Assembly (NCBI RefSeq): GCF_029227915.1
Contig: NC_079878.1
Span: 21,973,501 to 22,037,500 of the forward strand
DNA: 64,000 nucleotides
Source of the DNA: Hydractinia symbiolongicarpus
Taxonomy: Eukaryota > Cnidaria > Hydrozoa > Anthoathecata > Hydractiniidae
Direction: 5' to 3'
Made by a program: the position numbers and the translations under genes. Below the pieces are notes generated by a model that worked only from the letters and a program-made list of their open reading frames with translations, made no database searches and was not told where the DNA came from. This document shows positions 3,201-57,700 of the stretch, one piece after another (within the stretch, counting starts at the first letter, position 1; each line of letters starts with the position of its first letter).

Positions 3201-4799
3201 GTACTGTATTCTACTACTGTTGTTCTACTACTCTTCTATAAATTGTACTGTTCTACTACTGTTCTATAATATGTATACTGCACCCAGAAAAATAATATAA
3301 TATATATATTTTTACAATGTGGTGATAATGTGTTGCCTTCCTAACATCTTTCCCTATAAATATATTGCCTGAGTGAGTGACAAGTCAGTCTAGCAATTCA
3401 AAAGCGAGGTTTCAAAGGTGACAGTGATGATTGTTACGACGGCATATTTTTTGATTTTAGCAAACGGTCCTGTTGTAGCTAATTATTTTAATAACATACA
3501 AGATTCTGCGTTCGCCAACTTAACATCCGATCCACGGTATCCTAACTCACCAACAGCTTCTGGTTTTATTGACAACTTTGATTCAGCTGCGAATGTTGGT
3601 AGCAAATACGGTTTGCAACTGCATTCCTACTTTGTTGCCCCGCAATCTGGGTTTTACAAGTTTGTTGCAGCATGTGATAACGTATGTCAAGTGTACCTAT
3701 CTACTGATTCTGATCCTGCAAATAAAGCCAGCATTATTACTGTCACGTCATATACCAGTCGATATCAGTACAACAAGTAAGTGACAGATTCTCTTTCAAA
3801 AGTTCCGTTTTCGCAGTTCAATGTATTTCTAAAGATATTGGTTGATCAAAAGTTCTGTAAAACCTCTAGTATTTATAAAATATAAGTGCAAAGACTACTA
3901 TGATAAAGTAGATTTTAAACTACTCAATCGTCACAACATAATTGAGTAGAAAAGCTGTGGAAGATATGATGAATATGAAAAATATATAAAAATAATAGTT
4001 GGTAAAAATTTTTGCCCCCAATGCATATAAGTGGACATTTCGGGTATTTGGGTACTTGTCTTTTTGCTTAAAAACTAGCCGATTGACTGAAGGCCGTTTT
4101 AAAGTTCATATGGAGATTTAAAGCCAGATTGAAGTTCGTCTGGAAAAAATTCTTACTGGGGATTAAGTTAGCGATTAGCTGGGAAAATTATTAGTTATTG
4201 ACCCTCCTCAACACTATACTTTATATAATTTTTATATATAAGTTATAGTTTTATTCAATACAGAAAAAAATACAAAATCGCATCAAATAAATTTAAATAC
4301 TAGCAAAAGAAAATCTGAGGGAAAGGACACCTGGTCACTGCATATAGGCTTAAGAAATCTATATATATATAGTACAGACAAGTTATCTACTTTGTAGAAA
4401 GAGACAATAAATAAGAAAGATTTCTGACACATGTGTATATCTAAATCTGGACTGCTTGTGTATTTGTATTCAGTATTATGTATGAACTATTCAGTAGCCT
4501 GTTAATAAATGTACGGGTTCGTCCCTCCTTAATAATCGCATTTCGTGATACTGTAGCACGACGATTCCTTTAGGGATGGACAGACATAATACGACTAATA
4601 ATAACATAAAGATGTAATATCTTCTAGGCGAACATCACAGAATTCAAATGCGATAAAACTGGCTGCTGGTAGTGTGTATTACATTGAAGCCATTATGATT
4701 GAATTAGGCGGAGGTGATCACATCTCGGTTGGAGTTTATCTTCCTGATGGAACAGGAATATTGCCTATTACTTCTGATTATCTTACTATACCAACCTGA
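275..4799 (+). CDS. Multi-exon secreted-type protein with TSP1 and PA14 domains (5' end outside window)
   Basis: I propose exons 275-441, 1158-1459, 1938-2111, 2229-2510, 2625-2750, 3461-3776 and 4628-4799. All have AG/GT borders and reading phase carries through every junction, ending in TGA. Exon 3 encodes a thrombospondin type 1 repeat: STWTLWTPCSSFCGTG followed by paired Cys and TCTGKC-like spacing. Exons 4 and 5 hold a Cys-rich region with repeated C-x-P-x-GG / N-x-x-V-x-L patterns (CFEPKKGG, CLDPYGGS), resembling lectin-like trefoil repeats; this is uncertain. Exons 6 and 7 encode a PA14 domain (YFNN start, GYYKFVAACDN-type core, later AAGSVYYIEAIM), a carbohydrate- or adhesion-related module. 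Exons 1 and 2 carry a Trp-rich segment (WWRGPRG) that I do not recognise. The upstream exons, including any signal peptide, lie outside the window. An extracellular adhesion or recognition role is inferred from the domains only. Confidence 0.75.
808..932 (-). mobile_element. Non-autonomous Helitron-type mini-element
   Basis: Read on the minus strand it starts TCTTTAATAATAACCG and ends with a hairpin (CCCATGGG..CCCACGGG) about ten bases before CTAG followed by T. That is the classical Helitron end structure: 5'-TC and 3' hairpin plus CTRR, inserted between A and T. It is a relative of the copies at 6569 and 17570, in the first intron of the TSP1/PA14 gene. Confidence 0.6.
2840..2953. repeat. 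Terminal-inverted-repeat hairpin element in an intron
   Basis: The left arm (2840-2875) and right arm (about 2911-2953) are near-perfect inverted complements: CCAGG + A-run + TATATATA + GCTGATGAAGGT against its reverse. The unit looks like a MITE or the end structure of a retroelement. It lies in the intron between exons 5 and 6 of the TSP1/PA14 gene. A 19-bp direct repeat (CAAGAAAAGCCAGTACCCA) occurs twice just before it. Confidence 0.6.
2865..2900 (+). ncRNA. Hammerhead-ribozyme-like core (candidate)
   Basis: CTGATGA at 2865-2871 is followed by a short stem-loop (GGT...GCC) and GAAA at 2885-2888, which is the order of the conserved hammerhead core. There is one extra A before the stem II strand, and the cleavage side (GTT near 2900 or GTC near 2910) pairs only weakly with the rest. 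Hammerheads of this style are known in Penelope-like elements and retrozymes. This one may be inactive or a chance match. Confidence 0.25.
2954..3290 (+). repeat. tRNA-related SINE-like repeat
   Basis: At 3064-3135 there is a tRNA-like block with a box A (TAGCTCAGTTGG, 3071-3082) and a box B (GGTTCAAATCC, 3114-3124). The 5' acceptor strand does not pair with the 3' strand and the anticodon arm is replaced by a G-run. It is therefore not a working tRNA. An AAAAGGCAATTGCAAACTC block upstream resembles conserved SINE body segments. It is probably a tRNA-derived SINE inside the TSP1/PA14 gene intron. Confidence 0.45.
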
Positions 4800-6090
4800 C
4801 TTTAAATACGTTTTCTGGCACGCTTAATAAAAGTAATTATTGTAAAGCACGATTAGTAACGGGACATTTATGCACTTTGACCATTTTATAACGAAATACA
4901 TAAACGCACGATGAAGACAGATCATTGTAAAGGATGTAACTTTTGGGAAACCTTGATACCTCACCTGTTCTTACTCTCTGCTTTCGTTTTAAGCTACCTG
5001 TCATAGAAGCCTGTTTTTAGTAAGTTGCGCTCCTCAACATGCCAACTTTATGATTATAAAAAATCCATAATTTTTCCAGGTTCACGTTAATTAAAAGTGT
5101 TACAGACAGGTATGATGTAACCAAAATAAGCCATGCAGAAGATCCAATTTATGCAAAAAGGAGATAGGTTCATTAATCTATTAAAAAATAAACCCTTGAG
5201 ATGGATTACATACAAAAGATTTATGAGGTGTTTTAGCCCTCCGAGTTCGCACCTTTTTCTGCAAAAACACTTTTTTAGGCCAAGAAATAATTAACTTTCT
5301 GAAGCTGAGGAAAAAATCTAAATAGTTTGTGCTTGGTACCTTCGATACCTTAATTCAGCGTTATAAAACAGAAGGACAACCTTTCATAACCACCTAGTCA
5401 TTAAATTGCAGTTGAAACAAGGGGAAAAGAATATGCGTTACCCAACTTTTAAGAAGATAATGGTTTAATTAGTTAAACTTTCGCAAATTTAACAACTTTT
5501 CGTTTGTCCTGCGAAAGTTCAATTCTCAAAATTTTTAAAAATGACCATTCAGAAAAGTTTGTTCAGTTCAATTAAAACTTGCTTATAGAATTATAAAAAT
5601 TAAAAATAAAACGATGCTTCAATATGCATCCCGAGAAATCAAGTAACAGTTTCCAGAGAGGGTCTTTTCCTCATTTACATTACAAGCCACTGTATGAAAA
5701 CGAAGGAAGGTTGCCGCATTCCTTGACTATGTGAAAAAAAAAAATAATAAACGTCCGAACATTGTACAATACTCCTTTTAAACGTGTGCAGCTTGAGTTA
5801 CAATAAACAATCTATTCAGAATTTAAAAATCTCTATCGAATTAACCCATTGAAAAGTCGATGTGATCATCAGAATTCTTTACCCGGCAAATATAATATGG
5901 GCGGCTTAAAGTGTAATTACAACAAAAATTGATGTAAATTCTTCGACATGAGTTTTGACGGTTTTATGTTGACTGAGTAATAATAAGCTGGAGGGCCCAG
6001 TCTGAAAATGATATGAAACGCTGTGACATTGTTGTTTTTTCTATCCTATCGGCCCGTCTACAAGAGTGCAAAGCCAATCAAAATGCTTAA
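4800..6090. other. Intergenic, no gene seen
   Basis: AT-rich spacer after the TGA of the TSP1/PA14 gene. I see no coding pattern or clear repeat. Confidence 0.6.
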
Positions 6091-6348
6091 CAACCCGTAT
6101 TGCCCGCTTGTATAAGCCAAACGGTAAACAATATTCAATACTACTCGTTTGCCCGTGGAAAATGTAAATATGGTCCATATCGCTCTTTTGTGCCCCCTGT
6201 CCCACTGTTAAAATGCTGTAATGAAATTTACTTGGATTGCAATGATTATTGCAATGATTATAGGTGCAATTATAATGGCGTTTTCGATTACAAAAGCCCC
6301 AGTTGTGCTTGTCTAAGACAGAAAAAGTGTCATTCTTTAACTACCTAA
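6091..6348 (+). CDS. Cys-rich open frame, possible terminal exon (unknown)
   Basis: This open frame has no ATG in its first part. It could be a terminal exon spliced in after an AG near 6117. The second half holds eight Cys within about 45 residues (CCNEIYLDCNDYC ... CACLRQKKC), suggesting a small disulfide-rich secreted domain. The CC-x(6)-C-x(3)-C spacing faintly recalls phospholipase A2-like folds, but the catalytic HD pair of PLA2 is absent, so I do not call it an enzyme. It lies on the + strand between the TSP1/PA14 gene and the toxin-like gene. It may equally be a chance open frame or a pseudo-exon. Confidence 0.25.
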   Translation, partial: QPVLPACISQTVNNIQYYSFARGKCKYGPYRSFVPPVPLLKCCNEIYLDCNDYCNDYRCNYNGVFDYKSPSCACLRQKKCHSLTT

Positions 6349-31923: not shown

Positions 31924-34131
31924 ATGGCGAAATTTGTTGACATAAAATGTCCGTCCACTTTTGATACCCACGGGGACCCAACACGGCTTGGAACTTTTAC
32001 CTGAGGAAACAAATGTATACAAAATTGCATGCACGAAATTGGACATTATTTTCTCCCTCAAAAGAATAAAGTTATAAACGTATGTTTTTCGTACGTGTCC
32101 AAACAGACACAAATGAACCAATTGCGCAATATGTTACACGTGTGCGATCCCCAGCAAAAACGTGTGAATTTCATGACACAGATGATGAAATTGTTGACCA
32201 AGTAAGTGAAAAATGCAATTCCCGTAAACTCCGAAAACGACTCTTGAAAGAACACGACTTTACACTTGCGAAGTTGTGTGAAATTGCTGCAATCAATGAA
32301 GCTGCAGATCACCAAGCAGAGCAGTACAAAAACACACAACCTACTGACACTATTGGTAACGATGAATCTGACAACGATGAGGTCAACAGAATTTCAATTC
32401 GCACTCATCGAATTCGCTTTCCAAAAAGTTCTATTTCAAGACAAACAGAGAAGAATCAAACATGTTACAGGTGTGGTAGCAAGAATCACCTTGCTAATAC
32501 TTGTGAGGTAACAAAAGGAAAATCCTGTCATGCGTGTGGAAAAGCTGGTCATTTCAGTAACGTTTGCAAATCGAGCCAGCGACAAGATAAAGTAAGATGT
32601 GTAATCGCTGAGAGCTCTTCTTCTGATGACGTCTCTGTTTTTGCACTCACCAATATTGCACAATCCAACAACCCGTATCCAATCCAATTGAATGGTCATG
32701 TCATTAATGTCCTCATTGACAGTGGCAGCAATATCAATTTGATCAGTGCAGATATCTTAAAAAGCCTCAAACAACCACTTCAACTGAGGCCTTACAACAG
32801 AAACGTCTATCCCTACAAATCTAAGGTACCAATTGCTGTTATCGGCTATGTGTGGGCAAACTGTTGAGTCCAATAACCAAAACACTTCCGCAAAATTTGT
32901 TGTCGTACCAAGCTCTGACATCAATATTTTAGGTTATGATACCGCTTGTGCTTTGGATCTACTACGAGTTGGCACAAATACTGACGTGGTCAACCAAATT
33001 GAAATAACTAATCCCAGATTACATTAAATGCTGAGCGAATACGCTGATCGCTTTGAAGGTTTGGTAAAGCTGAAAGATGTGGAACTAGATGTGGAACTAC
33101 ACTGTATCACCCCTTTGTCAAAAAGCCCGTCGGTTACCAATACTGATGCAGAAACAGGTTGACGATGAGCTTGATAAATTACTTGATTATCATGTGATTG
33201 AACCTGTTGAATCACCGCCAATATGGGTCAACCCACTTGACATTGTCCCTAAGAAAGATTCCTCATCTACCAGCATACGCATGTGTGTTGATATGCGTGC
33301 TACAAATGCTGCTATTATTAGAGAACCATATCATATACCTACTTTGGAGGAGTTGCTACATGAGCTAAATGGTTGTACCGTGTTTACGAAGTTAGATCTC
33401 AACAAAGGTTACCACCAAATCGCGCTAGATACAGAGGGCGAGATTTAACTGCTTTCGCTACTCACCGTGGTATTTTCAGATATACAAGGATCATTTTTGG
33501 TATGTCATCTGCTGCTGAGTTCTATCAAAGAGAAATAGAGCATGCCCTCATTGGGATTCCTGGAGTGTGCAACAATTTTTGATGATATTATAATTGGAGG
33601 ACGCAAAACTGAAGAACTGCTTGACCGCATGAATAAAGTCTTTCAACGCCTACGTGAGAAACACCTTACAATTAACCGTAGAAAATGTGAATTTTTAAAA
33701 AGTGAACTCATCTAAATGGCTCAAAAATTGTCATCCGAAGTTGTTGCACCTGATAAAAGAAATATTCAAACAATAGTAGACTTGAAACCACCATCGAATG
33801 CCAAAAAAATGCGCTCATTCTTAGGCACGGTAACTTACTGTTCAAAATTCCTGCCTAATTTTGCAACTGTCCCTTATCCGTTACGTCAACTACTGCGAAA
33901 AGATTGCACATGGAATTGGTACATCGAGCATCAGACTGCATTTGACAATTTGAAGTCACTGCTCTTGTCCAGTAATACACTGGCATATTTCAACCCAAAT
34001 GCATACACAGAAGTAGTTATTGATGCTTCTCCAGTTGGTCTTGCAGCTGTTACCACACAATGTCAACCTGATGGAACTCTAAGACCAATAAGTTACGCTA
34101 GCCGATCACTATCTTCCGTTGAAACACGATA
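31924..34131 (+). pseudogene. Gypsy gag-pol, left part
   Basis: Gag begins at ATG 31924 (CPSTFDTHGDPTRLGT) but is cut by an internal deletion before 32060. It resumes with QYVTRVRSPAKTCEFHDTDD. Two zinc knuckles follow (CYRCGSKNHLANTC, CHACGKAGHFSNVC). Then come the protease (VLIDSGSNINLIS, catalytic D-S-G), RT (KLDLNKGYHQIALD; FGMSSA; a broken F-DDIIIGG catalytic motif near 33580) and the start of RNase H (AYTEVVIDASPVGLAAV). Frameshifts or stops occur near 32865, 33445, 33580 and 33715. The frame ends where the pogo-type element is inserted, in the codons VETRY. Confidence 0.85.
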
Positions 34132-34157
34132 CCGTCATTCTTCTAATTTAATCCGTC

Positions 34158-34269
34158 CTCTAATTAGTACGAATTAATTATTTTGGCAAAATGAAATAAT
34201 TTATTTAACTCTAATTATTAGTACGAGTCCATAATTACTAATTTCAGATTTTCCTCTAATTTAGTACGA
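34158..34269 (+). repeat. Subterminal motif repeats, left end
   Basis: Three copies of a CTCTAATTATTAGTACGA-like motif at 34158-34172, 34209-34226 and 34254-34269. They are probably transposase or accessory-protein binding sites. They recur at 36900-37011 through the tandem duplication. Confidence 0.7.
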
Positions 34270-34354
34270 TAAAGGTCAAATTTTCTTTAAAACACGTAAT
34301 TTTTTTTGTTTCAAACTTTCTTTTTTAAAAAAACATGAAAAATTTTAATCTAAT

Positions 34355-36119
34355 TTACAAAGTAAATGGATCGTCTTCAGCATCGTCACTGTCTAGGATG
34401 GTTTTAGCTTTTTCCATGCATTTTGAATAAAATTCGCCACTTCGGACCTTCGAAGGATCTGTGGTAGTTATTCCGCATACATCAAAGGATTTCATTGTCA
34501 TATCCTTGTCATCTGAAATAATTTGGAATGCCTTTTCAACCCAATCCACCATGTCCTGTCTGGTTGGCGGAGGTAGCTTATAATCGCTAGGTGTAGGTGT
34601 GGGCATCTTCTCGACTGCTTTGTTGACATGCTCGACCCAACATTTTCGTAGAATTGCTTTAAATGGTTTGTTAATACATACATCCATTGGCTGACACTTT
34701 GAAGTACAACCGGCTGGGATCATTAAGGCATCTGATTTGTTTTCGTTCAGCTTACTCGCCACAGTGTCTGTCTTGTGAGCAGAAAAGGCATCATAGGTAA
34801 ACAGGGAGTTTTCCAATCCGAGCTCTTTGTTGATTTTCTTCACATATTTGACCCATATCTCATCCAGCCAAACAATCATGAGATCTTCATCCATCCATGC
34901 TTTCTCTTGAGTTTTTACGACAAACCCTTCAGAAACACGCAATTTTCCGATAGTTCTTTCAGTCTTCCCTTTAAAAATCAGCATCGGCGGTAGCAAAGTA
35001 CCGTCAGCAGCAGCTGAAAGAACGATGGTGATATGTTTCTTGTCATTGCCTGACGTTCGAACAACACATTCTCTGCTACCGATCTTACAGATGCTCTTTG
35101 TTGGGACCATATCGAAAAAAGCTGGAGTTTCATCCATATTTCCCACCAATGATCTGGGATATTTCCCAATTCTCATGAAACAACCGGCATCTGCATAAAA
35201 CTTCGAAATCGATTCTTCCAATTGACGTGGAAGCTTTTGGCTCACTGATGTCCTGCTGTGCAGTGACAAACGATGTCGTTGAAAGAACTTCGCGACCCAG
35301 CCTCGGCTAGCATTAAAATCAGGATTGTGAGGTTGGACGACACCTTTTGCTTTCTCTTGTGACGCAAGAACAGACACTGGGACATGCAAATCTCTAAGTT
35401 CAAGAATCCATCGAATCAAATCATTCTCGACTTCCAACGGATATGTTATTTGTCGACCAGCTCCTGAACGACTCCCTTTATCACTCAACTTTACTGCTCT
35501 GCCTGGAGTTTTCACGATGTTTCGAAGAGTTGACTCGTGCACATGGAAAGCTTTGGCTGATTCGGTATAACTTTTCGTGCGTGCGTAGTGTTCTCGCATT
35601 TCGATTTTCGTTTTTTCAGTAAATCTCTTACGTGTTGTGTGTTCGTTTCCACCGACGATATTGGCTCGTTGGTGTAGATAGAAATTACATATGATCGATT
35701 CGAAATGCTGAGATTGTTGCTTTAGATTGTTGAAGTCGTGATTTTTTTCTATCATTCGCTCGATCTGTTCACCTGTGTACGGTTTGGGTGGCCTACCAAC
35801 AGGCTTCTTACTTGGAGGAGGCGCTATTTTTCCTGAAAATAATAATAGAAAGAATCCTTGAGCAAATAATAACTTAAACTCAAATGTATAGTATTTGAGA
35901 AAAAAAATCACCCCTATGAGTTATTCTGTCACTTTCATTTCAAAGTTGAAATCATAATTTGAGTCACATTAAACTAAAGGTTTACTTACTGCCTAAATAA
36001 ACCACGTCGTCATCTTTTGCAGTTCCAGGAGCAAAATAAGAGGATATTGTTGATTGACGCTTTCGTTGGTTTTTAACGTTGCTTTGAAAATAGCCAAACA
36101 GTTTGGTTTGGGTTGACAT
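34355..36119 (-). CDS. pogo-type transposase, copy 1 (two exons)
   Basis: Exon 1 is 36119-35990, starting at the ATG of MSTQTKLFGYF. Exon 2 is 35832-34355. The GTAAGT donor and TTTTCAG acceptor join in phase to give about 535 residues. Residues 4-11 (QTKLFGYF) and 22-29 (QSTISSYF) both fit the PCNA-binding box Q-x-x-h-x-x-a-a. An AT-hook-like VGRPPKPY follows. Next come CENP-B-type helix-turn-helix regions (TKSYTESAKAFHVHESTLR; then GWVAKFFQRH). The DDE_1 core has Asp residues in GNMDETPAFFD, FTYDAFSAH and SKCQPMDV (35 residues between the last two). It would cut and paste the element at TA sites. No stop or frameshift is seen. The pogo family is known for PCNA binding; two N-terminal boxes are unusual. 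Confidence 0.85.
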
Positions 36120-36367
36120 GATGATACCACGCGCGACAGACTAACAGCACTGACAAAAGAAAAGAGTGCTCCAAATCGATTGTTTTGAATTTGTAAAATC
36201 ATTTGGGTTTTCCTCTATGAAAAGAAACATTCGATTTGCAATGCAATGAGCTCGCAATATCATTTGGATTTTCCTCCGAACAAAAACATTGGATTCGAAA
36301 TGCAAAGACGTCAGTATTTGCCTGATGCTAGCTTCTACCTCGACGTACTCAGAAAAGTTGTAGAAAA

Positions 36368-36919
36368 ATGACCGACGATATTACTCCATTACTACTTTTT
36401 GATTTAGAGATACCAATACCATTGGAAAAAGAATTTACTGTTCCTTGTTGCATCAGAGGTTATCATATTTACAGATGGAAGCAATGGAAAGCTGAAATAG
36501 GATCAATTTTAACGAGCGAACCAGAAGTGAGACCGGGTGCTTTGGTTGAAGATAAATATTCCATTGCTGTATTAGATAATGGACAAACAATTGGACATGT
36601 GCCTAAATTTCTCTCGCAACTGATATTCTTTTTTCTGCGAAAAGATTGCACATGGAATTGGTACATCGAGCATCAGACTGCATTTGACAATTTGAAGTCA
36701 CTGCTCTTGTCCAGTAATACACTGGCATATTTCAACCCAAATGCATACACAGAAGTAGTTATTGATGCTTCTCCAGTTGGTCTTGCAGCTGTTACCACAC
36801 AATGTCAACCTGATGGAACTCTAAGACCAATAAGTTACGCTAGCCGATCACTATCTTCCGTTGAAACACGATACCGTCATTCTTCTAATTTAATCCGTCC
36901 TCTAATTAGTACGAATTAA
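36368..36919 (+). pseudogene. Chimeric frame: HIRAN-like N-terminal half fused to Gypsy RNase H
   Basis: The first ~88 codons equal the start of the intact HIRAN-like gene at 39110. After ..SQLIFFFL the duplication junction at 36635 continues in the same frame into Gypsy pol (RKDCTWNWYIEH .. VETRY), then into the transposon end, to a stop at 36919. It is open for 183 codons but joins unrelated halves. It lacks the end of the HIRAN-like domain, so it should not work as such. Confidence 0.8.
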
Positions 36920-37096
36920 TTATTTTGGCAAAATGAAATAATTTATTTAACTCTAATTATTAGTACGAGTCCATAATTACTAATTTCAGATTTTCCTCTA
37001 ATTTAGTACGATAAAGGTCAAATTTTCTTTAAAACACGTAATTTTTTTTGTTTCAAACTTTCTTTTTTAAAAAAACATGAAAAATTTTAATCTAAT

Positions 37097-38861
37097 TTAC
37101 AAAGTAAATGGATCGTCTTCAGCATCGTCACTGTCTAGGATGGTTTTAGCTTTTTCCATGCATTTTGAATAAAATTCGCCACTTCGGACTTTCGAAGGAT
37201 CTGTGGTAGTTATTCCGCATACATCAAAGGATTTCATTGTCATATCCTTGTCATCTGAAATAATTTGGAATGCCTTTTCAACCCAATCCACCATGTCCTG
37301 TCTGGTTGGCGGAGGTAGCTTATAATCGCTAGGTGTAGGTGTGGGCATCTTCTCGACTGCTTTGTTGACATGCTCGACCCAACATTTTCGTAGAATTGCT
37401 TTAAATGGTTTGTTAATACATACATCCATTGGCTGACACTTTGAAGTACAACCGGCTGGGATCATTAAGGCATCTGATTTGTTTTCGTTCAGCTTACTCG
37501 CCACAGTGTCTGTCTTGTGAGCAGAAAAGGCATCATAGGTAAACAGGGAGTTTTCCAATCCGAGCTCTTTGTTGATTTTCTTCACATATTTGACCCATAT
37601 CTCATCCAGCCAAACAATCATGAGATCTTCATCCATCCATGCTTTCTCTTGAGTTTTTACGACAAACCCTTCAGAAACACGCAATTCTCCGATAGTTCTT
37701 TCAGTCTTCCCTTTAAAAATCAGCATCGGCGGTAGCAAAGTACCGTCAGCAGCAGCTGAAAGAACGATGGTGATATGTTTCTTGTCATTGCCTGACGTTC
37801 GAACAACACATTCTCTGCTACCGATCTTACAGATGCTCTTTGTTGGGACCATATCGAAAAAAGCTGGAGTTTCATCCATATTTCCCACCAATGATCTGGG
37901 ATATTTCCCAATTCTCATGAAACAACCGGCATCTGCATAAAACTTCGAAATCGATTCTTCCAATTGACGTGGAAGCTTTTGGCTCACTGATGTCCTGCTG
38001 TGCAGTGACAAACGATGTCGTTGAAAGAACTTCGCGACCCAGCCTCGGCTAGCATTAAAATCAGGATTGTGAGGTTGGACGACACCTTTTGCTTTCTCTT
38101 GTGACGCAAGAACAGACACTGGGACATGCAAATCTCTAAGTTCAAGAATCCATCGAATCAAATCATTCTCGACTTCCAACGGATATGTTATTTGTCGACC
38201 AGCTCCTGAACGACTCCCTTTATCACTCAACTTTACTGCTCTGCCTGGAGTTTTCACGATGTTTCGAAGAGTTGACTCGTGCACATGGAAAGCTTTGGCT
38301 GATTCGGTATAACTTTTCGTGCGTGCGTAGTGTTCTCGCATTTCGATTTTCGTTTTTTCAGTAAATCTCTTACGTGTTGTGTGTTCGTTTCCACCGACGA
38401 TATTGGCTCGTTGGTGTAGATAGAAATTACATATGATCGATTCGAAATGCTGAGATTGTTGCTTTAGATTGTTGAAGTCGTGATTTTTTTCTATCATTCG
38501 CTCGATCTGTTCACCTGTGCACGGTTTGGGTTGCCTACCAACAGGCTTCTTACTTGGAGGAGGCGCTATTTTTCCTGAAAATAATAATAGAAAGAATCCT
38601 TGAGCAAATAATAACTTAAACTCAAATGTATAGTATTTGAGAAAAAAAATCACCCCTATGAGTTATTCTGTCACTTTCATTTCAAAGTTGAAATCATAAT
38701 TTGAGTCACATTAAACTAAAGGTTTACTTACTGCCTAAATAAACCACGTCGTCATCTTTTGCAGTTCCAGGAGCAAAATAAGAGGATATTGTTGATTGAC
38801 GCTTTCGTTGGTTTTTAACGTTGCTTTGAAAATAGCCAAACAGTTTGGTTTGGGTTGACAT
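37097..38861 (-). CDS. pogo-type transposase, copy 2 (two exons)
   Basis: Exon 1 is 38861-38732 and exon 2 is 38574-37097, with the same structure as copy 1. Three of the four differences from copy 1 change residues: K to E in TIGxLRV (37687), Y to C (38520) and P to Q (38532). The last two alter the AT-hook-like segment to VGRQPKPC. The PIP boxes, helix-turn-helix and all three catalytic Asp are kept. The copies differ by only ~0.15 %, so the duplication is recent. This copy sits next to the intact HIRAN-like gene, 248 bp away head to head, so the two probably share a promoter region. Confidence 0.85.
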
Positions 38862-39109
38862 GATGATACCACGCGCGACAGACTAACAGCACTGACAAAA
38901 GAAAAGAGTGCTCCAAATCGATTGTTTTGAATTTGTAAAATCATTTGGGTTTTCCTCTATGAAAAGAAACATTCGATTTGCAATGCAATGAGCTCGCAAT
39001 ATCATTTGGATTTTCCTCCGAACAAAAACATTGGATTCGAAATGCAAAGACGTCAGTATTTGCCTGATGCTAGCTTCTACCTCGACGTACTCAGAAAAGT
39101 TGTAGAAAA
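38862..39109. promoter_or_regulatory. Shared upstream region of transposase and HIRAN-like genes
   Basis: The 248 bp between the two divergent ATGs hold two related units (CATTTGG-TTTTCCTC.., ATTCGATTTGCAATGCAATGAG / GGATTCGAAATGCAAAG), so this is the likely bidirectional promoter. No TATA box is clear. An identical copy lies at 36120-36367. Confidence 0.5.
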
Positions 39110-39643
39110 ATGACCGACGATATTACTCCATTACTACTTTTTGATTTAGAGATACCAATACCATTGGAAAAAGAATTTACTGTTCCTTGTTGCATCAGAG
39201 GTTATCATATTTACAGATGGAAGCAATGGAAAGCTGAAATAGGATCAATTTTAACGAGCGAACCAGAAGTGAGACCGGGTGCTTTGGTTGAAGATAAATA
39301 TTCCATTGCTGTATTAGATAATGGACAAACAATTGGACATGTGCCTAAATTTCTCTCGCAACTGATATTCTTTTTTCTTAAATACGAAGGCACGTTATCA
39401 ATAAAGGTAACAGGAGAGCGAAGATTCTCATTCGATCTTCCACAAGAAGGTATGGAGATACCAGCTGATTTTGTCTTCAAAACAGTCGATGCAAAACTTC
39501 ACAATCAAATGAGAGAGAAAGTTCTCAAGGAACTGGAAAACTTTGAAGGGAGAAGAAAAGTTGGTATAAATAAGAGTTTAAAAAAGAAAGAAAAAAAAAA
39601 GAAAAAGTACCAAAAAGTGTGTTTTCAATTTTTCAACCCCTAA
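39110..39643 (+). CDS. HIRAN-like accessory protein of the pogo-type element
   Basis: Single-exon frame of 177 residues, ATG preceded by AAAA, divergent from transposase copy 2. Residues ~20-110 read CCIRGYHIYRWKQW .. VEDKYSIAVLDNGQTIGHVP .. FFFLKYEGTLSIKVTGERR. This has the G-Y-H-x-Y, D-(R/K)-Y-x-(I/V)-A-V and (I/V)-G-H-(V/I)-P pattern I associate with HIRAN-like proteins seen in animal transposon-rich genomes. HIRAN domains (as in HLTF and Rad5) bind single-stranded 3' DNA ends. The tail is Lys-rich (KKKEKKKKK), as in DNA-binding proteins. The position inside the terminal repeats shows that it belongs to the transposon. A role in handling transposon ends or replication forks is inference. 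The HIRAN call needs a profile search. Confidence 0.6.
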   Translation: MTDDITPLLLFDLEIPIPLEKEFTVPCCIRGYHIYRWKQWKAEIGSILTSEPEVRPGALVEDKYSIAVLDNGQTIGHVPKFLSQLIFFFLKYEGTLSIKVTGERRFSFDLPQEGMEIPADFVFKTVDAKLHNQMREKVLKELENFEGRRKVGINKSLKKKEKKKKKYQKVCFQFFNP

Positions 39644-39738
39644 TTTAATACGATTTGATTCCTATTTTACTCTAATTATTAGTACGACAATTAACTTCAA
39701 TTTCCAAGGTATTTTATTTCCTCTTATTATTAGTACGA
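39637..39738 (+). repeat. Subterminal motif repeats, right end
   Basis: Three copies at 39637-39653 (CCCCTAATTTAATACGA), 39670-39687 and 39721-39738. They have the same orientation as the left-end copies, not inverted. Confidence 0.7.
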
Positions 39739-39791
39739 CTCCTTCAAAATAATTATTTTTACCGGAGGATTAAATTAGAAGAATGACGGTA

Positions 39792-48189: not shown

Positions 48190-48675
48190 CATTGTTCACA
48201 ACTATTAAGTGCCGCTTTTCGTTGTTAAACTTTTAAAATGCGATCTAAAAAAACATTTCTATCGCCGCTTTTCGTTGTTAAACTTTTAAAATGCGATCTA
48301 AAAAAACATTTCTATCGCTGCTATTCGTTTTTAAACTTTTGAAAAGCGATCTAAAAAAACATTTCTATCGCCGCTTTTCCATTTTAAACTTTTGAAAAGC
48401 GATCTAAAAAAACATTTCTATCGCCGCTTTTCGTTTTTAAACTTTTAAAAAGCGATCTAAAAAACATTTCTATCGCTGCTATTCGATTTAAAACTTTTAA
48501 AAAGCGATCTAAAAAAACATTTCTATCGCTGCTATTCGTTTTTAAACTTTTAAAATGCGATCTAAAAAAACATTTCTATCGCCGCTTTTCGATTTTAAAC
48601 TTTTAAAATGCGATCTAAAAACATTTCTATCGCCGTTTTTCGATTTTAAACTTTTAAAAAGCGATCTAAAATCAA
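48190..48675 (+). repeat. ~52.5-bp satellite, array 1 (about 9 units)
   Basis: Each unit contains AACTTTTAAAATGCGATC, an A-run, CATTTCTATCGC and CGCTTTTCG. Units differ at a few positions (AAAATGCG or AAAAAGCG; GCCGC or GCTGC). Confidence 0.9.
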
Positions 48676-49841: not shown

Positions 49842-50775
49842 TTTATTTAGCTAGAAAATCTGAGCCACTAAATTATGTTTTATGCTTTAGTTAGGGAGCT
49901 TTTTAGGGGTGTGAATGACCTAAAAGTGAAAAATAGTGATAGCTCTACATAACCTTCCATTTTCACAATATTTTTCAAAATAAATACTATGGACAAGGTT
50001 GCAAAAAACACATTATGGAGGTTGCATTTATTCTTTTATTTATAAAAAAAGTCCAGGCTCTTCTGCTAAAAAGAATATATGTCTATACCAATGTTCTTTT
50101 GCTGATTTGGCTAAACTTTTGGTTCTTAGTTTTTTGTCTAAAATTGTTAGAACCAACATATTTTGTGGATAATTGTAGATATTTGACGGTACTTTCCTAA
50201 TCAGAGCATAATTAACTCATTGTGCAGTATGTGTATGACAAGAAAATATGTCTTAAGGATCATTTAAATCTAGCTACATAGCTAATTTTATGCCGGCCAA
50301 GTAGCCAGTTTTATGTCAGATAAGTAGCTAGTGAGAAAAACAGTTTTGTGCTGGTTAACTACCTAGTTTATGCTGCTAGCTAGCCAATTTGGTAGTGTTA
50401 TACCAGCTTATTTTGCCACATATGTTGGTAGTTATTTGCTAGTTAGGTGTGGGTGAGAAGAGGTTCATTACATGTAAAAAATAGTGATATACTAGCTAGC
50501 TATTCATACTTCCCTCTTTCGTTTTCTTGAAAATAATATAGTTCGTCCCCATTTTCCGCTTGGCACTATCTTTAAAAAACAACAAACACTCCATCGCTTT
50601 GCTCCCTGATAAACACATTAAATTGCTGGATTACTGTGATTTTTAGTTTGAATTTTTATAATTCGGATGTATAGGGACGAAATCGCATAGAAATGCTATA
50701 TACTCTCCATCGTACTTCTTTTCCCTTATATTTGGCTTACATAATGAGGAAATAGGCTCTGCTACTCTCCGCAAA
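49842..50775. other. Spacer between satellite arrays
   Basis: AT-rich. At 50260-50450 short AGCTAG / GTAGC motifs recur. I see no coding pattern. Confidence 0.4.
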
Positions 50776-51880
50776 AGCATTTCTATCGCTGCTATTCGTT
50801 TTTAAACTTTTAAAATGCGATCTAAAAAAACATTTCTATCGCCGTTTTTTGTTTTTAAACTTTTAAAATGCGATCTAAAAAAACATTTCTATCGCTGCTA
50901 TTCGTTTTTAAACTTTTAAAATGCCATCTAAAAAAACATTTCTATCGCCGCTTTCCGATTTTAAACTTTTAAAATGCGATCTAAAAACATTTCCATCGCC
51001 GTTTTTCGATTTTAAACTTTTAAAATGCGATCTAAAAAAACATTTCTATCGCCGCTTTACCATTTTAAACTTTTAAAATGCGATCTAAAAAAACATTTCT
51101 ATCGCCGCTTTTCGATTTTAAACTTTTAAAAAGCGATCTAAAAAAACATTTCTATTCTCGCTGTTCGTTTATAAACTTTTAAAATGCGATCTAAAAAAAC
51201 ATTTCTATTGCCGCTTTTCGATTTTAAACTTTTAAAATGCGATCTAAAAAAACATTTCTATCGCCGCTTTCCGTTTTTAAACTTTTAAAATGCGATCTAA
51301 AAACATTTCCATCGCCGTTTTTCGATTTTAAACTTTTAAAGTGCGATCTAAAAAAACATTTCTATCGCCGCTTTTCCATTTTAAACTTTTAAAATGCGAT
51401 CTAAAAAAACATTTCTATCGCCGCTTTCCGATTTTAAACTTTTAAAATGCGATCTAAAAACATTTCCATCGCCGTTTTTCGATTTTAAACTTTTAAAATG
51501 CGATCTAAAAAAACATTTCTATCGCCGCTTTACCATTTTAAACTTTTAAAATGCGATCTAAAAAAACATTTCTATCGCCGCTTTTCGATTTTAAACTTTT
51601 AAAAAGCGATCTAAAAAAACATTTCTATTCTCGCTGTTCGTTTATAAACTTTTAAAATGCGATCTAAAAAAACATTTCTATTGCCGCTTTTCGATTTTAA
51701 ACTTTTAAAATGCGATCTAAAAAAACATTTCTATCGCCGCTTTCCGTTTTTAAACTTTTAAAATGCGATCTAAAAACATTTCCATCGCCGTTTTTCCATT
51801 TTAAACTTTTAAAATGCGATCTAAAAAAACATTTCTATCGCCGCTTTTCGATTTTAAACTTTTAAAAAGCGATCGATTTC
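50776..51880 (+). repeat. ~52.5-bp satellite, array 2 (about 21 units) with 473-bp higher-order repeat
   Basis: Same unit as array 1. Distinct variants recur at a spacing of 473 bp, nine units: GCTTTACC at 51054 and 51527, TCTATTCTCGCTG at 51151 and 51624, GCTTTCCGATTT at 50950 and 51423. Confidence 0.9.
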
Positions 51881-54160
51881 ATATTTAGATTTTGTACTGT
51901 CTACCTAAGGATGGTATTTTCGCACAAAGACTTATTAAGATTTAAGAATATGTGAAATGATATTTAGACAGTTTAAATCTTGATAATGAAATTTTGTTGT
52001 TTCTAACTAAGGATAATGTTTTAGGAGGTAAGACCTGTCAGTAGCATGTAAACTGATACTTTAGCATTAAAATTTTGATATTAAAATTGATGTTTGTGAT
52101 TTAAAAATGCAGAATATAAAGTCTCCTTATGTTTTTTTGCTAAATTCATGTTCAATTAGAATTGATCATATATTATGTTAATATTCTTTAGGAACAAAAT
52201 ATCTTAAAGTTATTATTCCAAGTGTAAAGCTAAAGGTATGCTTGTAGTTCAAATCTTAGTTTATTTTTAAACTTTCCATACGGATTTTTTTTTTTTGGTG
52301 ATAGATGTGTTACTAAAACTTCAAAAAAAATGCCATTATTCATTATGTAATCAATGGGAATTTTCTAAATAGCTCAGAGCCATTTGTTTTATAATGGTAA
52401 AGCACAAACGAAAATAATTTAAACTTTAGGTGTACTATTTATTATTATGTCCTTGACTTCCCTCATATATTATAAAGATGTTAGAATTTTATTTACTTGT
52501 TTTAGAGAATGAAAAAAAGTCTTAGAGGACATAATTGGCATGAAGCTGAAGAAAATATTGCCGGAAATATTGCAGAGATGGGAAAGACCCACCACATTTA
52601 GAAAAGTTGTGGATAAACGAATCAATAGGTTTAAAAAAAATATATGTTACATATCAGACGTTACCTTCATGAACTTTTATCCTTGTAGTTTCTTAAAAGT
52701 GTTTGATTCACTCCGATTTTATTTATGTATTTTACTACTCTTTAACGCCCGTAGAAAGATGCACTAATGCAGAAGATGAATCGAAAAAACATAGGTGGTT
52801 TTAGAAGTTTTGCTGTTGTCAACAGTGCATATGGAGAAATATGTTATGATAAATTGTTTACCCATTGACTTTATGTCTTAATTTGTAGATCTTAAATCGC
52901 TGATTAAGAAAGAATATGGGATTGTGTGCTTTTGACGAACGTATAAGGAGAGATAAGGGTTTTAAAATTATGCTCGCGTCAGCAAAGACTTGCCAAAATA
53001 CAAAAGAAATTGTGTAGAGCTTGAGATGCTAAACATGGAAATGTATATGATGTGATTTTGACAAACATTTTAAGGGATATAGGGATTTAAATGTTTTTGT
53101 TTACGTCATTTCTGTCCATTCCGAAATTAGTGGTGCTTTAGGAAATTGATCCTAATTTGGTCCTAGATAGTCCTTAGTTGCCCACGTAGGAGATAACATC
53201 AGTTATTTCTACCGGTTTCCAAGTCATTTACCCTGAAACTTAAAAGTGCAATGCAATTGTTTTAACATCAAAGTTTGGTAAATTACAGAATAATTTTATA
53301 GGTGATGTTTTATTTGCTGACAACAGTTGCAACTAAAGCTATTTGTGAAAGTTTTTTCATAAAAAACCTATTATATCATATTTCTGCTTAAGTGGAATTG
53401 AGGAAATCTACCAGCATTGATCAATGCGAAAAACCTTTTTAAATTTACGAAAACATATTAATGTATCTCCAGAAATTGCTCTTTTTTCTCTTCCTATTTC
53501 TATAGTATAAACTTAAGATGATTAAAGATACAAACGCATTTTATTTGACGAAAATAATATATGTAAAGTATATGTTGCTCAAATCCACCTTGCAATCCAA
53601 AAAATAATTAAGGAAATGAATGCACCACAAAAAAAATTATTTGAGGAAACAAATTTTTTTAGACCATGCTCCAAAAAACGATAAAGATTAGTTGCAAATA
53701 AAATTAATGAAAACATAATAGAAATAGTGCATTTGTACATTGAGAATTTTGCAAACAAAATTACATTGTATGCTGAGCACACTAGTTTTAAAAAAATACA
53801 CAAAACTCCCCCAAAAAGTATTAACAGTTTGTGGCAGCATATATTTTATATATCTTGCTGTCATGGGGACAACAATAGGAATAAACATATCTGTATTTGT
53901 GCACAAAAAAATGCAATTTTTATAGTCTAATAAAGACTTAGCTAGAATACTGCACGATTGCATGACATACAATAAAGAAAATCTTATTTTTAAAATGCAT
54001 TCTACCATTTGTATAAATTCTGACATGTGGAATATTTTTAGGTTAGGTTTGTAACAAGATGCATAAGGAGAGTTTTTATGTGAATATGCAGGTAAATATA
54101 GCACATAGAACCATGTTCATAAATGCATGCAATATGGGTATTTTTAAGCTACCAGCTTTT
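51881..54160. other. Spacer / intron, no sure exon
   Basis: At 52513-52640 a 5'-AG is followed by a Lys-rich open segment (MKLKKILPEILQRWERPTTF) that may be an exon, without proof. At 53090-53260 lies a diverged unit like the intronic repeat at 54520-54700. Confidence 0.35.
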
Positions 54161-54782
54161 GAAAATTCAATTAATTTATATTTTATCCTAATATAACTTG
54201 TGTTTGTTATAAACGAAATGACTATTTTGTTTTTACAGGGGACCTTATCAGTGACCATGATGCAGAACTCCGAGAAATAAATTATGCTCAGGAAAAAGTT
54301 GGCAACTTCATTTTTTACTTACATAAGAAAGATCAATGGTTTGTATTTGCTGTTCATTTTAAATATTTTACCATTTTTCTACTAGTAAATAAGGCCCTAA
54401 GGCGGTGGAACAATTGAAAAAACCTGTCATTTGAATTTTGATGTTGCCTCTTTTGTGTAAAGCTTGAAATAAGGGTCAAGAAAATGTTTAAGATCATGTA
54501 CTTTTAACAAACCGTTGAAAAGATATTGGAGTTTACCAGTCTTTTGATGACGTCTTCGACCCGTTTGATGAAAAAGTTGTTTGACCCAGTTTCAAGAAAT
54601 TGGTCCTATTTTGGTTCCAGGTGGTTTCTATTTACTCATACAGGGGGTTACATTTTTTCACCCGTTTCTACTGCTTCCTAAGTTATTTAATAAATTTGAT
54701 GTCAGTCTAAATGCATTGACGTGGTTCCGTAAAAAGTCTACATAGTTGACAAACAGACATACTTTAGCTGTTACAGAAAAAT
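54161..54782 (+). repeat. 622-bp tandem duplication, unit 1
   Basis: Contains a 100-bp exon-like segment (54239-54338) with flanking intron sequence. It is repeated immediately at 54783-55400 with only a few differences. Confidence 0.85.
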
Positions 54783-57700
54783 GAAAATTCAATTAATTTA
54801 TATTTTATCCTAATATAACTTGTGTTTGTTATAAACGAAATGACTATTTTGTTTTTACAGGGGACCTTATCAGTGACCATGATGCAGAACTCCGAGAAAT
54901 AAATTATGCTCAGGAAAAAGTTGGCAACTTCATTTTTTACTTACATAAGAAAGATCAATGGTTTGTATTTGCTGTTCATTTTAAATATTTTACCATTTTT
55001 CTACTAGTAAATAAGGCTCTAAGGCGGTGGAACAATTGAAAAAACCTGTCATTTGAATTTTGATGTTGCCTCTTTTGTGTAAAGCTTGAAATAAGGGTCA
55101 AGAAAATGTTTAAGATCGTGTACTTTTAACAAACCGTTGAAAAGATATTGGAGTTTACCAGTCTGTTGATGACGTCTTCGACCCGTTTGATGAAAAAGTT
55201 GTTTGACCCAGTTTCAAGAAATTGGTCCTATTTTGGTTCCAGGTTGTTTCTATTTACTCATACAGGGGGTTACATTTTTTCACCCGTTTCTACTGCTTCC
55301 TGAGTTATTTAATAATTTGATGTCAGTCTAAATGCATTGACGTGGTTCCGTAAAAAGTCTACATAGTTGACAAACAGACATACTTTAGCTGTTACAGACA
55401 TATTTTTATATTATTAAGCATATTTTTGTTAAAATGAAAATATAAGTAAATTGCTTTAGTTAATTAATTAAATTTACAGTATTAATGACATGTTTTTATG
55501 TATGCTTCAACATACAATTTGTTTACACATTTAGTTTAACTGGGCTTGGTAAAATGTGAAAATATAAATTTTATCACTTAAAATTATTGTGCAAATAATA
55601 TTTTAAGCCTATTGTATAAAGTAATGCACGAAAATGTGTATATAAATCAGATATTTTTTTGTTTTTGTAACTTATTTACTATGGATAAATACTTTCTGTT
55701 TACAGTATTGATGCGACTTTGAGTCATTAAATATGCAAGTTCATCAATGATTCCCCTCGAAGATACTGCAATGCCAGCATGAAACAACTAACGATAGATG
55801 GAAAACCACATCTTTGTCTGTTTGCATTACATGACATTGGTCTGTTTAGATCACATGACAAAAGGTCAAGAGCTGAGATATGATTATAATGACAAGGACA
55901 TTTGGTGGCGGGAAAAAAGTTAGTGAAAAACATTTGTATTTAAAACACATCTAAAAATATTTAAAGTTTTGAGAATAAACCTGGAAATATCTTTTTAAGA
56001 ATATCTAGTTTTTTACTTATCCAATTTTATTAGAGTCCAAAAATTATCTTGTGATTTAGAGATTTACAAATACATACTGTATGTATGTCAAAAAGGATTA
56101 CCATATACTTGACCATTCGAAATTGTTCTAAATGTTGTCTCCATTCATTCTTTTTAGAAAGACACACAGAAACCTTTTTTTAAAGTAAGTAACTCCATAT
56201 TATTACTTTCAGTTTATATATATATAAAAAAATTATGAAACAATGAATTTGATAACTATTTTTTTTTTCAAAATATTTTTGGGAAAGCCTGAGAAATGTT
56301 ATTTGTATCTTTGGGTTTATTTATAGATTTGTTATGAAAAATGTTTTTTTCTTTTACAGGATGATATATTTCCTGTAAATATCAGTATTGAAGCGGCTAA
56401 AAAAACGGATAAAATGGTGCGTATTCATGTTTTTTATAAATCTGAAATCCAGTTGCATTTAAGTTGCATGGAAATATGTAACCATAAAAAAATGTAATTC
56501 TCCTTTTTCAGATAAAAATTATACCTGCATCAGAAAAACAAACCACTTTTCAAAACATTACAATTGCTTTCGATTCAAGTAAACAAAGGGATGAACAAGT
56601 AGAAGAGCATTTGAAGGTATGAACAACTCCATTATCACTGACTCGTGATACACTCGCCAAAAAAGGAAGGAATGTCTTTCTCTAACAGGTTTGTGTTATT
56701 CAAGCTTTCCCTGTCACATACAGTCTACTGTGAATCTAGACTTGCTCACTGTTCTCTCTCTTTTGGAGTGAGCTTAACAAGGAAATTCTCTATATTAAAC
56801 AAGTGTCAGCAAGTTAATTAAATTTTGTAATAAAAAAATTGTAGTCTCTTTATGAAACCAATTGGTGTTATTTTTTATATTTTTAAAACTTATTGTTTAC
56901 TGTTAATAGCAAATATAGTTTAAACCTGTATTTATTGCAATGTGATGTTTACCTTTTTTCTTAATTTCTAAAATGTTCTAGACATTTTGTCCCTTTCTTT
57001 TTTATTTAAAATTTAGATTTTTTATATTAAATGTGAGCACAAGAGTAACAAAGAATGTGAAAGTTTCAAAGGACTTGAGAACAACTAGGATTTTTTTGCA
57101 AGAAATCATTATACTTAAAATCATAACAAGTTCTGAAGTATCATACTCATTATATACTTTCTCAAAAGTATTAAATATGGTTAATTAGATCATGAGTGTT
57201 GGTATTTTTTTATTTTAAGGATCTTGTGATTTTAAGCCCGCATGACAAAACTTGTAAGTTGTATAATTTTTTAGAAATCAATTAATAGTTGCTCCAAAAA
57301 CTTAGTCATCTTGACCATCAAACTCTTATAAACAACATTTAGTAACCCAACCCGGTTTTAAGTTGGTCCACAAGTCTGGCATATAAATTCTCAGTTATGG
57401 CTTTTCTCTGTGGGTGCCACTTCTATGGATCATCCATGCAAAGTAAGGAAAAGTTGCCAAAGCTGATACAAGTCTAGTTTTTACACATTTGTGACACAAC
57501 ATTTTTTGCCTCCGAAGGTCAATAGATAGTACCATATCATGGGTCAGAAAATCATTGTGTACAATAAATAACCAGTGCATAAATCTTGCTTTTAGGTTTC
57601 AATATGGAGGCAGTTCAAGAAAAAGCAGTACGTTAAAATATTTCTGTGATATTTTCTATGTTGTCTAGTAGAGAAATGAATTCTTGTGCGAAAGTTGTTT

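Follow-up and report, generated by a model that had tools for sequence, protein, structure and literature searches.

In a 64,000-nucleotide stretch of contig NC_079878.1 from the colonial hydroid Hydractinia symbiolongicarpus (the window), it was found that a complete two-gene element of the pogo superfamily occupies positions 36874 to 39789 (2916 bp), as delimited by its ends, its copies in the genome, and its terminal inverted repeats (TIRs) with TA flanks. The left TIR, CCGTCATTCTTCTAATTTAATCC, lies at 36874-36896 on the plus strand and the right TIR at 39767-39789 on the minus strand, bordered by a TA target-site duplication on the left (36872-36873) and on the right (39790-39791). With the TA counted in, the inverted ends are perfect over 25 nucleotides (36872-36896 and 39767-39791). 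A subterminal repeat, CTCTAATTATTAGTACGA, is present on the plus strand at the left end (36951-36968) and, in the same orientation, twice at the right end (39670-39687 and, with one mismatch, 39721-39738). The element carries two divergent genes, a minus-strand transposase gene and a plus-strand gene for a 177-residue protein, and the 248-bp region between them (38862-39109), a predicted shared promoter, contains an imperfect 55-bp direct repeat (38937-38991 and 38998-39050). The whole element is inserted in the pol region of an LTR retroelement: the sequence preceding it encodes RNase H domains, and the sequence following it an integrase H2C2 domain. The retroelement flanks, read by eye across the insertion (...ETRY^SQIER...), are Ty3/gypsy-like.

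A reading made from the sequence alone had taken 34132-39789 to be a single TA-flanked element. The two divergent genes and the PIP boxes that it named were confirmed, but the span was wrong: the segment 33893-36636 (plus strand) duplicates 36635-39378 with 99.85% identity (four mismatches), so the element is limited to 36874-39789 and the tandem copy lies outside the element proper. This copy consists of 239 bp of retroelement flank and element bases 1-2505, ends within the HIRAN ORF, and may be a genuine duplication or an assembly error. It is true that the longer span has TA and perfect inverted ends at its start and finish, and that TA with a TIR is found at 34130-34154 too. Nevertheless, it is scarcely credible that the whole 5.66-kb unit is the mobile element, since its extra part is retroelement sequence plus a copy of the left end, and since the 17 copies fetched from elsewhere with both ends span 684-2,932 bp. 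No copy elsewhere with an equal tandem structure was seen in the genome copy search.

That search covered the 481-Mb assembly, in which the window belongs to a contig of 35,952,230 bp, and all DNA loci described here come from this one genome. Near-full-length copies comprise the window copy and 12 others with 96-98% identity, and eight internally deleted copies were also fetched. Both ends are retained in 17 of the 20 fetched copies (L009-L028). All 17 have TA on both sides, as does the window copy, and their TIRs are perfect except for one mismatch in L022 (16 of 17). Three C6 copies without a left end resemble one segmentally duplicated copy. Since the 12 other copies differ from the window copy by substitutions at 1.0-1.5% only, the window family is young, and its copies alone are too young to reveal selection. 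Among the 13 near-full-length loci (L001, L009-L020), an open 535-residue transposase is found in three after I applied the splicing, and the HIRAN frame gives a 177-residue protein in seven; the other six HIRAN frames have an altered tail (four), a stop (one), or a deletion (one). For the window copy, the HIRAN frame was taken from its own ORF; the locus-wide reading caught the truncated tandem neighbour.

The transposase gene has two exons on the minus strand and encodes 535 residues after predicted splicing. Exon 1 (38732-38861; MSTQTKLFGYFQSNVKNQRKRQSTISSYFAPG...), which bears both PIP boxes, is present in 13 of 13 near-full-length loci. It is followed by a predicted intron (38575-38731; GTAAGT...TTTTCAG) and by exon 2 (37097-38574), which encodes CENP-B_N-like, HTH_Tnp_Tc5, and DDE_1 domains. 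In the relatives P0114, P0126, and P0151, the reading frame apparently runs on across this intron acceptor (FSGK...). In Pfam, the window transposase scored 78.4 bits for DDE_1 (cutoff 22), 41.8 bits for HTH_Tnp_Tc5 (cutoff 22.2), and 20.8 bits for CENP-B_N, just below the cutoff of 21.2, with no match to BrkDBD. The catalytic residues of the spliced protein are D277, D391, and D427, with 35 residues between the last two (DD35D); across 22 aligned sequences, D391 and D427 are invariant and D277 is nearly so. The TA duplication, the short TIRs, DDE_1 with its DDD triad, and HTH_Tnp_Tc5 together place the element in the pogo superfamily.

The two consecutive N-terminal PIP boxes noticed earlier are indeed present. 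Box 1 (QTKLFGYF, residues 4-11, 38829-38852, minus strand) and box 2 (QSTISSYF, residues 22-29, 38775-38798, minus strand) both fit the strict pattern Qxx[ILM]xx[FY][FY] and are separated by a basic stretch. Two or more strict boxes anywhere in the protein, equalling this pair, occurred in three of 20,000 shuffles of the window transposase. All 13 near-full-length loci have an unaltered box 1 and a canonical box 2, the latter with a T-to-Q change in L013; L013 has no start ATG, and in L017 and L018 a stop codon separates the two boxes. Are the boxes kept in more diverged relatives, as the sequence-only reading would have it? In six readable diverged loci, box 1 is canonical in five, but box 2 is canonical in only two, retaining QxxIxxF in five. 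L029 has QTNLLGYF and QTNITSFF in two frames, L038 has QTNLLGYF and QSDITFFF, and L030, L031, and L033 have Q[TA]KIQNYF and QVKISSFL (L031 in two frames), while both boxes are degraded in L035 (QTSLQKIL); a seventh locus, L032, has lost exon 1. The same layout is seen in three more distant proteins whose sequence extends through this region, P0116 (QSTLKSYF and QLQISAFT), P0117 (QSTLKNYF and QLKISDFT), and P0188 (MQSIKGFF and QLSISSFA). Judging from the box sequences in these diverged loci and distant proteins, box 1 is well conserved as a PIP box, whereas box 2 is a second clamp-like motif of weaker character, with the full canonical form in the window family. An N-terminal excess of the loose motif [ILMV]xx[FY][FY] (35 versus 6.5 expected in 120 listed transposases) was set aside as evidence, because many of these matches are to an internal NFY motif, whose N-terminal position is only apparent since the proteins start in exon 2.

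The plus-strand gene (39110-39643) encodes a 177-residue protein with a HIRAN fold, a type by which repair enzymes hold DNA, and a long basic C-terminal helix, both the fold and the helix being predicted. The HIRAN profile PF08797 gave E 0.22 and 11.8 bits, not reaching the gathering cutoff of 24.7 bits. It matched five of the 52 alignment members (best E 0.019), and the unrelated family ComJ matched seven of the 52 (best E 0.0038). Because PF08797 stayed below its threshold and ComJ matched better, the sequence alone is indecisive on the HIRAN identity. However, fold comparison assigned the predicted fold to HIRAN. In addition, the window protein has a homologue (34.5% identity, E 8e-14) in the HIRAN protein of a sister element (element B, see below). 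The element B protein passes PF08797 with 34.1 bits against 24.7, while that of element A falls just short with 23.0 bits. Thus, the Pfam check suggested by the sequence-only reading was negative for the 39110 protein itself, but by its predicted fold and the homologous proteins of the sister elements the window protein can be taken as a HIRAN protein. No HIRAN chain was recovered from the PDB sequences with the HIRAN profile, and in a profile comparison just 26 columns could be aligned to HLTF, with 4% probability. No relatives of either protein were confirmed in the collections of viral contigs and genome contigs.

The residues Y73, D94, H110, and K113 of HLTF have equivalents in Y35, D62, H77, and K80 of the window protein, which are kept in 48, 48, 51, and 49 of 52 sequences, respectively. 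On the other hand, the alignment revealed that the window lineage lacks N90/N91 of HLTF as well as its stacking tyrosines, Y72 and Y93. According to PMC4666394, the N90/N91 double mutation alone fully impaired the HIRAN domain of HLTF, and PMC11237066 describes this domain as binding 3' ends. Since these residues are absent, 3'-OH-specific binding is doubtful here, and the HLTF-like end recognition expected earlier is unsupported.

I fetched 18 diverged loci (L029-L046), of which seven contain a substantial window-type transposase. A divergent HIRAN gene adjoins the transposase in six of the seven, L038 being the exception. L034 has the HIRAN gene only, and the other ten hold ends or short fragments, some of which are shorter transposase pieces (those in L044, for example) that have no HIRAN neighbour. 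In L029, TIRs (CCGTAATTATTCTAAT...) enclose both genes, with TA on the right and not on the left. A search of the genome with the HIRAN protein listed at least 150 matches, 150 of 481 candidates being scored; among the matches listed, a hand count gave 14 rows with a 147-residue and 23 with a 192-residue open frame. At L047, a site with both frame sizes, it was revealed that two different Tigger-like elements lie side by side. Element A (TIRs at 193-220 and 2981-3008) has a 532-residue transposase frame ending in KKQCSIKDFFKS and a 147-residue HIRAN frame. Element B (TIRs at 3346-3384 and 6151-6189) has a 539-residue transposase frame ending in KQSSIKDYFK and a 192-residue HIRAN frame; frame lengths in both elements are counted from stop to stop. 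In both, the gene pair is divergent and lies inside the TIRs. Their transposases scored 131 and 132.6 bits for DDE_1, have HTH_Tnp_Tc5 and DDE_1 in common with CENP-B_N in A only, and show DD30D and DD32D spacings. L031 also contains a diverged B-type element with the same gene pair and a C-terminal QASIKDFF. Thus, a second gene in relatives, which the sequence-only reading called for, was found beside the transposase in six of the seven diverged loci with a substantial transposase, in elements A and B, and in the B-type relative.

In summary, three pogo lineages combine HIRAN with a PIP box, which the transposase bears at one end or at the opposite one. By shuffling, a strict box anywhere arose in 287, 378, and 309 of 20,000 transposase sequences (1.4-1.9%). 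The same pairing in two distantly related elements of this genome suggests a shared helper function. Outside the genome, six of 66 transposase rows (120 listed, 214 found) are on contigs equal in size to those of HIRAN rows, one of them 2,881 bp; these equal contig sizes, in a comparison with 142 HIRAN rows, are the only sign of a pairing there. HIRAN genes outside pogo elements also exist in the genome: that of L048, whose HIRAN match reaches only E 0.028, is near a ubiquitin-hydrolase-like ORF, and that of L049 has no transposase in view.

How does the element compare with known systems? It resembles Passer, a DD35D pogo group, in the TA duplication, TIRs shorter than 30 bp, and HTH_Tnp_Tc5 with DDE_1 (PMC7386202, PMC9976928). 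Passer is described in PMC9976928 with a single ORF, whereas the window element has the HIRAN gene inside its TIRs, and differs further by its predicted intron, its two PIP boxes, and the lack of a BrkDBD match; Passer may, according to PMC7386202, carry HTH_Tnp_Tc5 alone without BrkDBD. Elements A and B look Tigger-like by their domains (HTH_Tnp_Tc5 and DDE_1), by their spacings (DD30D and DD32D, within DD29-36D), and by their ends (short CAGT-type TIRs and TA). They carry a divergent HIRAN gene, while most complete Tiggers are single-ORF elements according to PMC9219625. Drosophila pogo was identified among the interactors of PCNA, with a box conserved in Tigger and Lemi1 (PMC5371812). It shares a PIP box in the transposase with the window type, which differs in having two tandem N-terminal boxes and a HIRAN partner gene. 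Compared with HLTF and Rad5, the window protein has the predicted fold and part of the conserved residues, but it stands alone without an SNF2 motor or RING and has an added basic C-terminal helix. Bacterial HIRAN genes lie beside HipA and diDNase genes, the latter often in genomic islands, but their predicted roles are in antitoxin action or defence, outside any DDE transposon (PMC11706625). A literature search for HIRAN paired with pogo, transposase, or Tigger gave no such element among the matches listed. PIF/Harbinger elements also combine a transposase with a helper gene, but they belong to a different superfamily and their helper is Myb-like. Thus, the kind of element is already known and the HIRAN partner is the new part; as far as the literature searched shows, no other eukaryotic mobile element has been described with its own HIRAN protein.

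It is nearly certain that the parts are correctly identified, namely a DNA transposon of the pogo superfamily with two genes, one for a DD35D transposase bearing two PIP boxes and a divergent one for a HIRAN-fold protein. What the parts do together is far less so. The best explanation, in which a PCNA-tethered transposase works with a HIRAN helper, has about an even chance of being right, and the detailed mechanism, PCNA docking plus HIRAN action at the ends or the clamp, slightly less than that. In this mechanism, the transposase would move the element by cut and paste, and its PIP boxes would tether it to PCNA, so that its action would coincide in place and time with DNA replication or repair. 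For its part, the HIRAN protein would work in trans at the cleaved site, on either the DNA ends or the clamp. It may bind single-stranded ends, or PCNA as the HIRAN domain of Rad5 does; it may protect the cleaved complex against the fork remodellers of the host and assist in delivering the ends to the repair machinery or the target. Of the earlier interpretation, the HIRAN protein, the pairing, and box 1 have stood, while the boundaries had to be corrected and neither HLTF-like 3'-OH recognition nor a coupling to replication forks is supported. Several observations argue against the PCNA-and-helper explanation. According to PMC7804152, the HIRAN domain of HLTF itself does not bind PCNA, and the HLTF residues N90/N91, Y72, and Y93 are missing here. 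Most relatives have only a degenerate box 2, and in L035 both boxes are degraded. The L038 transposase (one of seven diverged loci) and the L044 fragments have no HIRAN neighbour, HIRAN genes occur outside pogo elements (L048 and L049), and one genome supplies all DNA loci. It is a tentative idea that a PIP box and HIRAN form a transposition module common to pogo lineages (DD35D and DD30-32D), in which the transposase would dock on PCNA and HIRAN would manage the cut ends, either to link excision with replication-linked repair or to keep the fork remodellers of the host from removing the transposase.

Two other explanations are close rivals of the favoured mechanism, each on its own being rather unlikely. 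The stand-alone HIRAN protein may be a decoy that antagonises the host: by occupying ends or partner surfaces, it would keep host HLTF/Rad5-type translocases from dismantling the cleaved complex, and the PIP boxes would be a separate matter. This agrees with the report that the isolated HIRAN domain of HLTF is dominant negative and inhibits the removal of Cas9 from cleaved ends by HLTF (PMC11237066), and with the make-up of the protein, which consists of a HIRAN fold plus a long helix, with neither motor nor RING. However, N90/N91, whose mutation much weakened such inhibition in HLTF, are missing in the window lineage. Equally, the protein may be a plain accessory DNA-binding or targeting factor for nuclear import, end pairing, or regulation, with no link to PCNA or forks. 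The predicted basic C-terminal helix and the divergent gene starts 248 bp apart are consistent with such a role, to which the joint occurrence of a PIP box and a HIRAN gene in three pogo lineages is opposed. Two-gene DNA transposons in other superfamilies also count for it, and the second gene of PIF/Harbinger has a comparable role. It is improbable that the HIRAN gene is a functionless passenger captured in a hydrozoan pogo ancestor, the PIP boxes being simply a known pogo feature. The single genome and the youth of the window family leave some room for this, but HIRAN relatives are retained at 34-98% identity, and pN/pS between the window copy and the seven diverged loci L029-L035 (more than 100 aligned codons each) is 0.34-0.56, with synonymous sites saturated.

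Passer is under development as a gene-delivery tool (PMC9976928; PMC11840574). If the helper gene is kept, part of the Passer/Tigger machinery may have been overlooked in one-gene descriptions. PMC5371812 describes it as unclear what PIP boxes contribute in pogo transposases, a question for which the present element offers a direct test.

Window 33893-39378, which takes in most of the two-gene pogo element, is a tandem duplication with a 2.74-kb unit, whose copies differ by 4 mismatches and overlap by about 2 bp at the junction. The duplication could be genuine or could be an assembly error. At window 36368-36919 the HIRAN reading frame runs as far as its midpoint and then continues across the junction, without a frame shift, into RNase H sequence of the retroelement, so that a chimeric ORF results.

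Subterminal repeats in identical orientation were found at both ends of the element (window 36951-36968, 39670-39687, and 39721-39738). Similar repeats, mostly in the same orientation, occur in A and B, the two Tigger-like elements that adjoin each other at locus L047. These repeats are possible binding sites of the transposases.

HIRAN-like ORFs were also found at two further loci of the genome, in stretches lacking a pogo transposase (L048) or a transposase (L049). In L048, a HIRAN-like ORF of 263 aa lies close to one that resembles ubiquitin C-terminal hydrolase (2289-3080 and 4268-5299), and open frames of the HIRAN-like type, comparable in length and score, recur among the matches listed in the genome HIRAN search. 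The 256-aa ORF of L049 (2396-3166) has a cysteine-rich N-terminus; Pfam gave no match for it, and its relatedness comes from BLAST. Rows resembling it likewise come up repeatedly among the matches listed.

Elsewhere in the window, two mutually related arrays (48211-48671 and 50773-51874; about 90% identity) have a period near 53 bp and are satellite-like. Positions 54160-54777 and 54782-55398 form a tandem pair of about 618 bp each, 99% identical.
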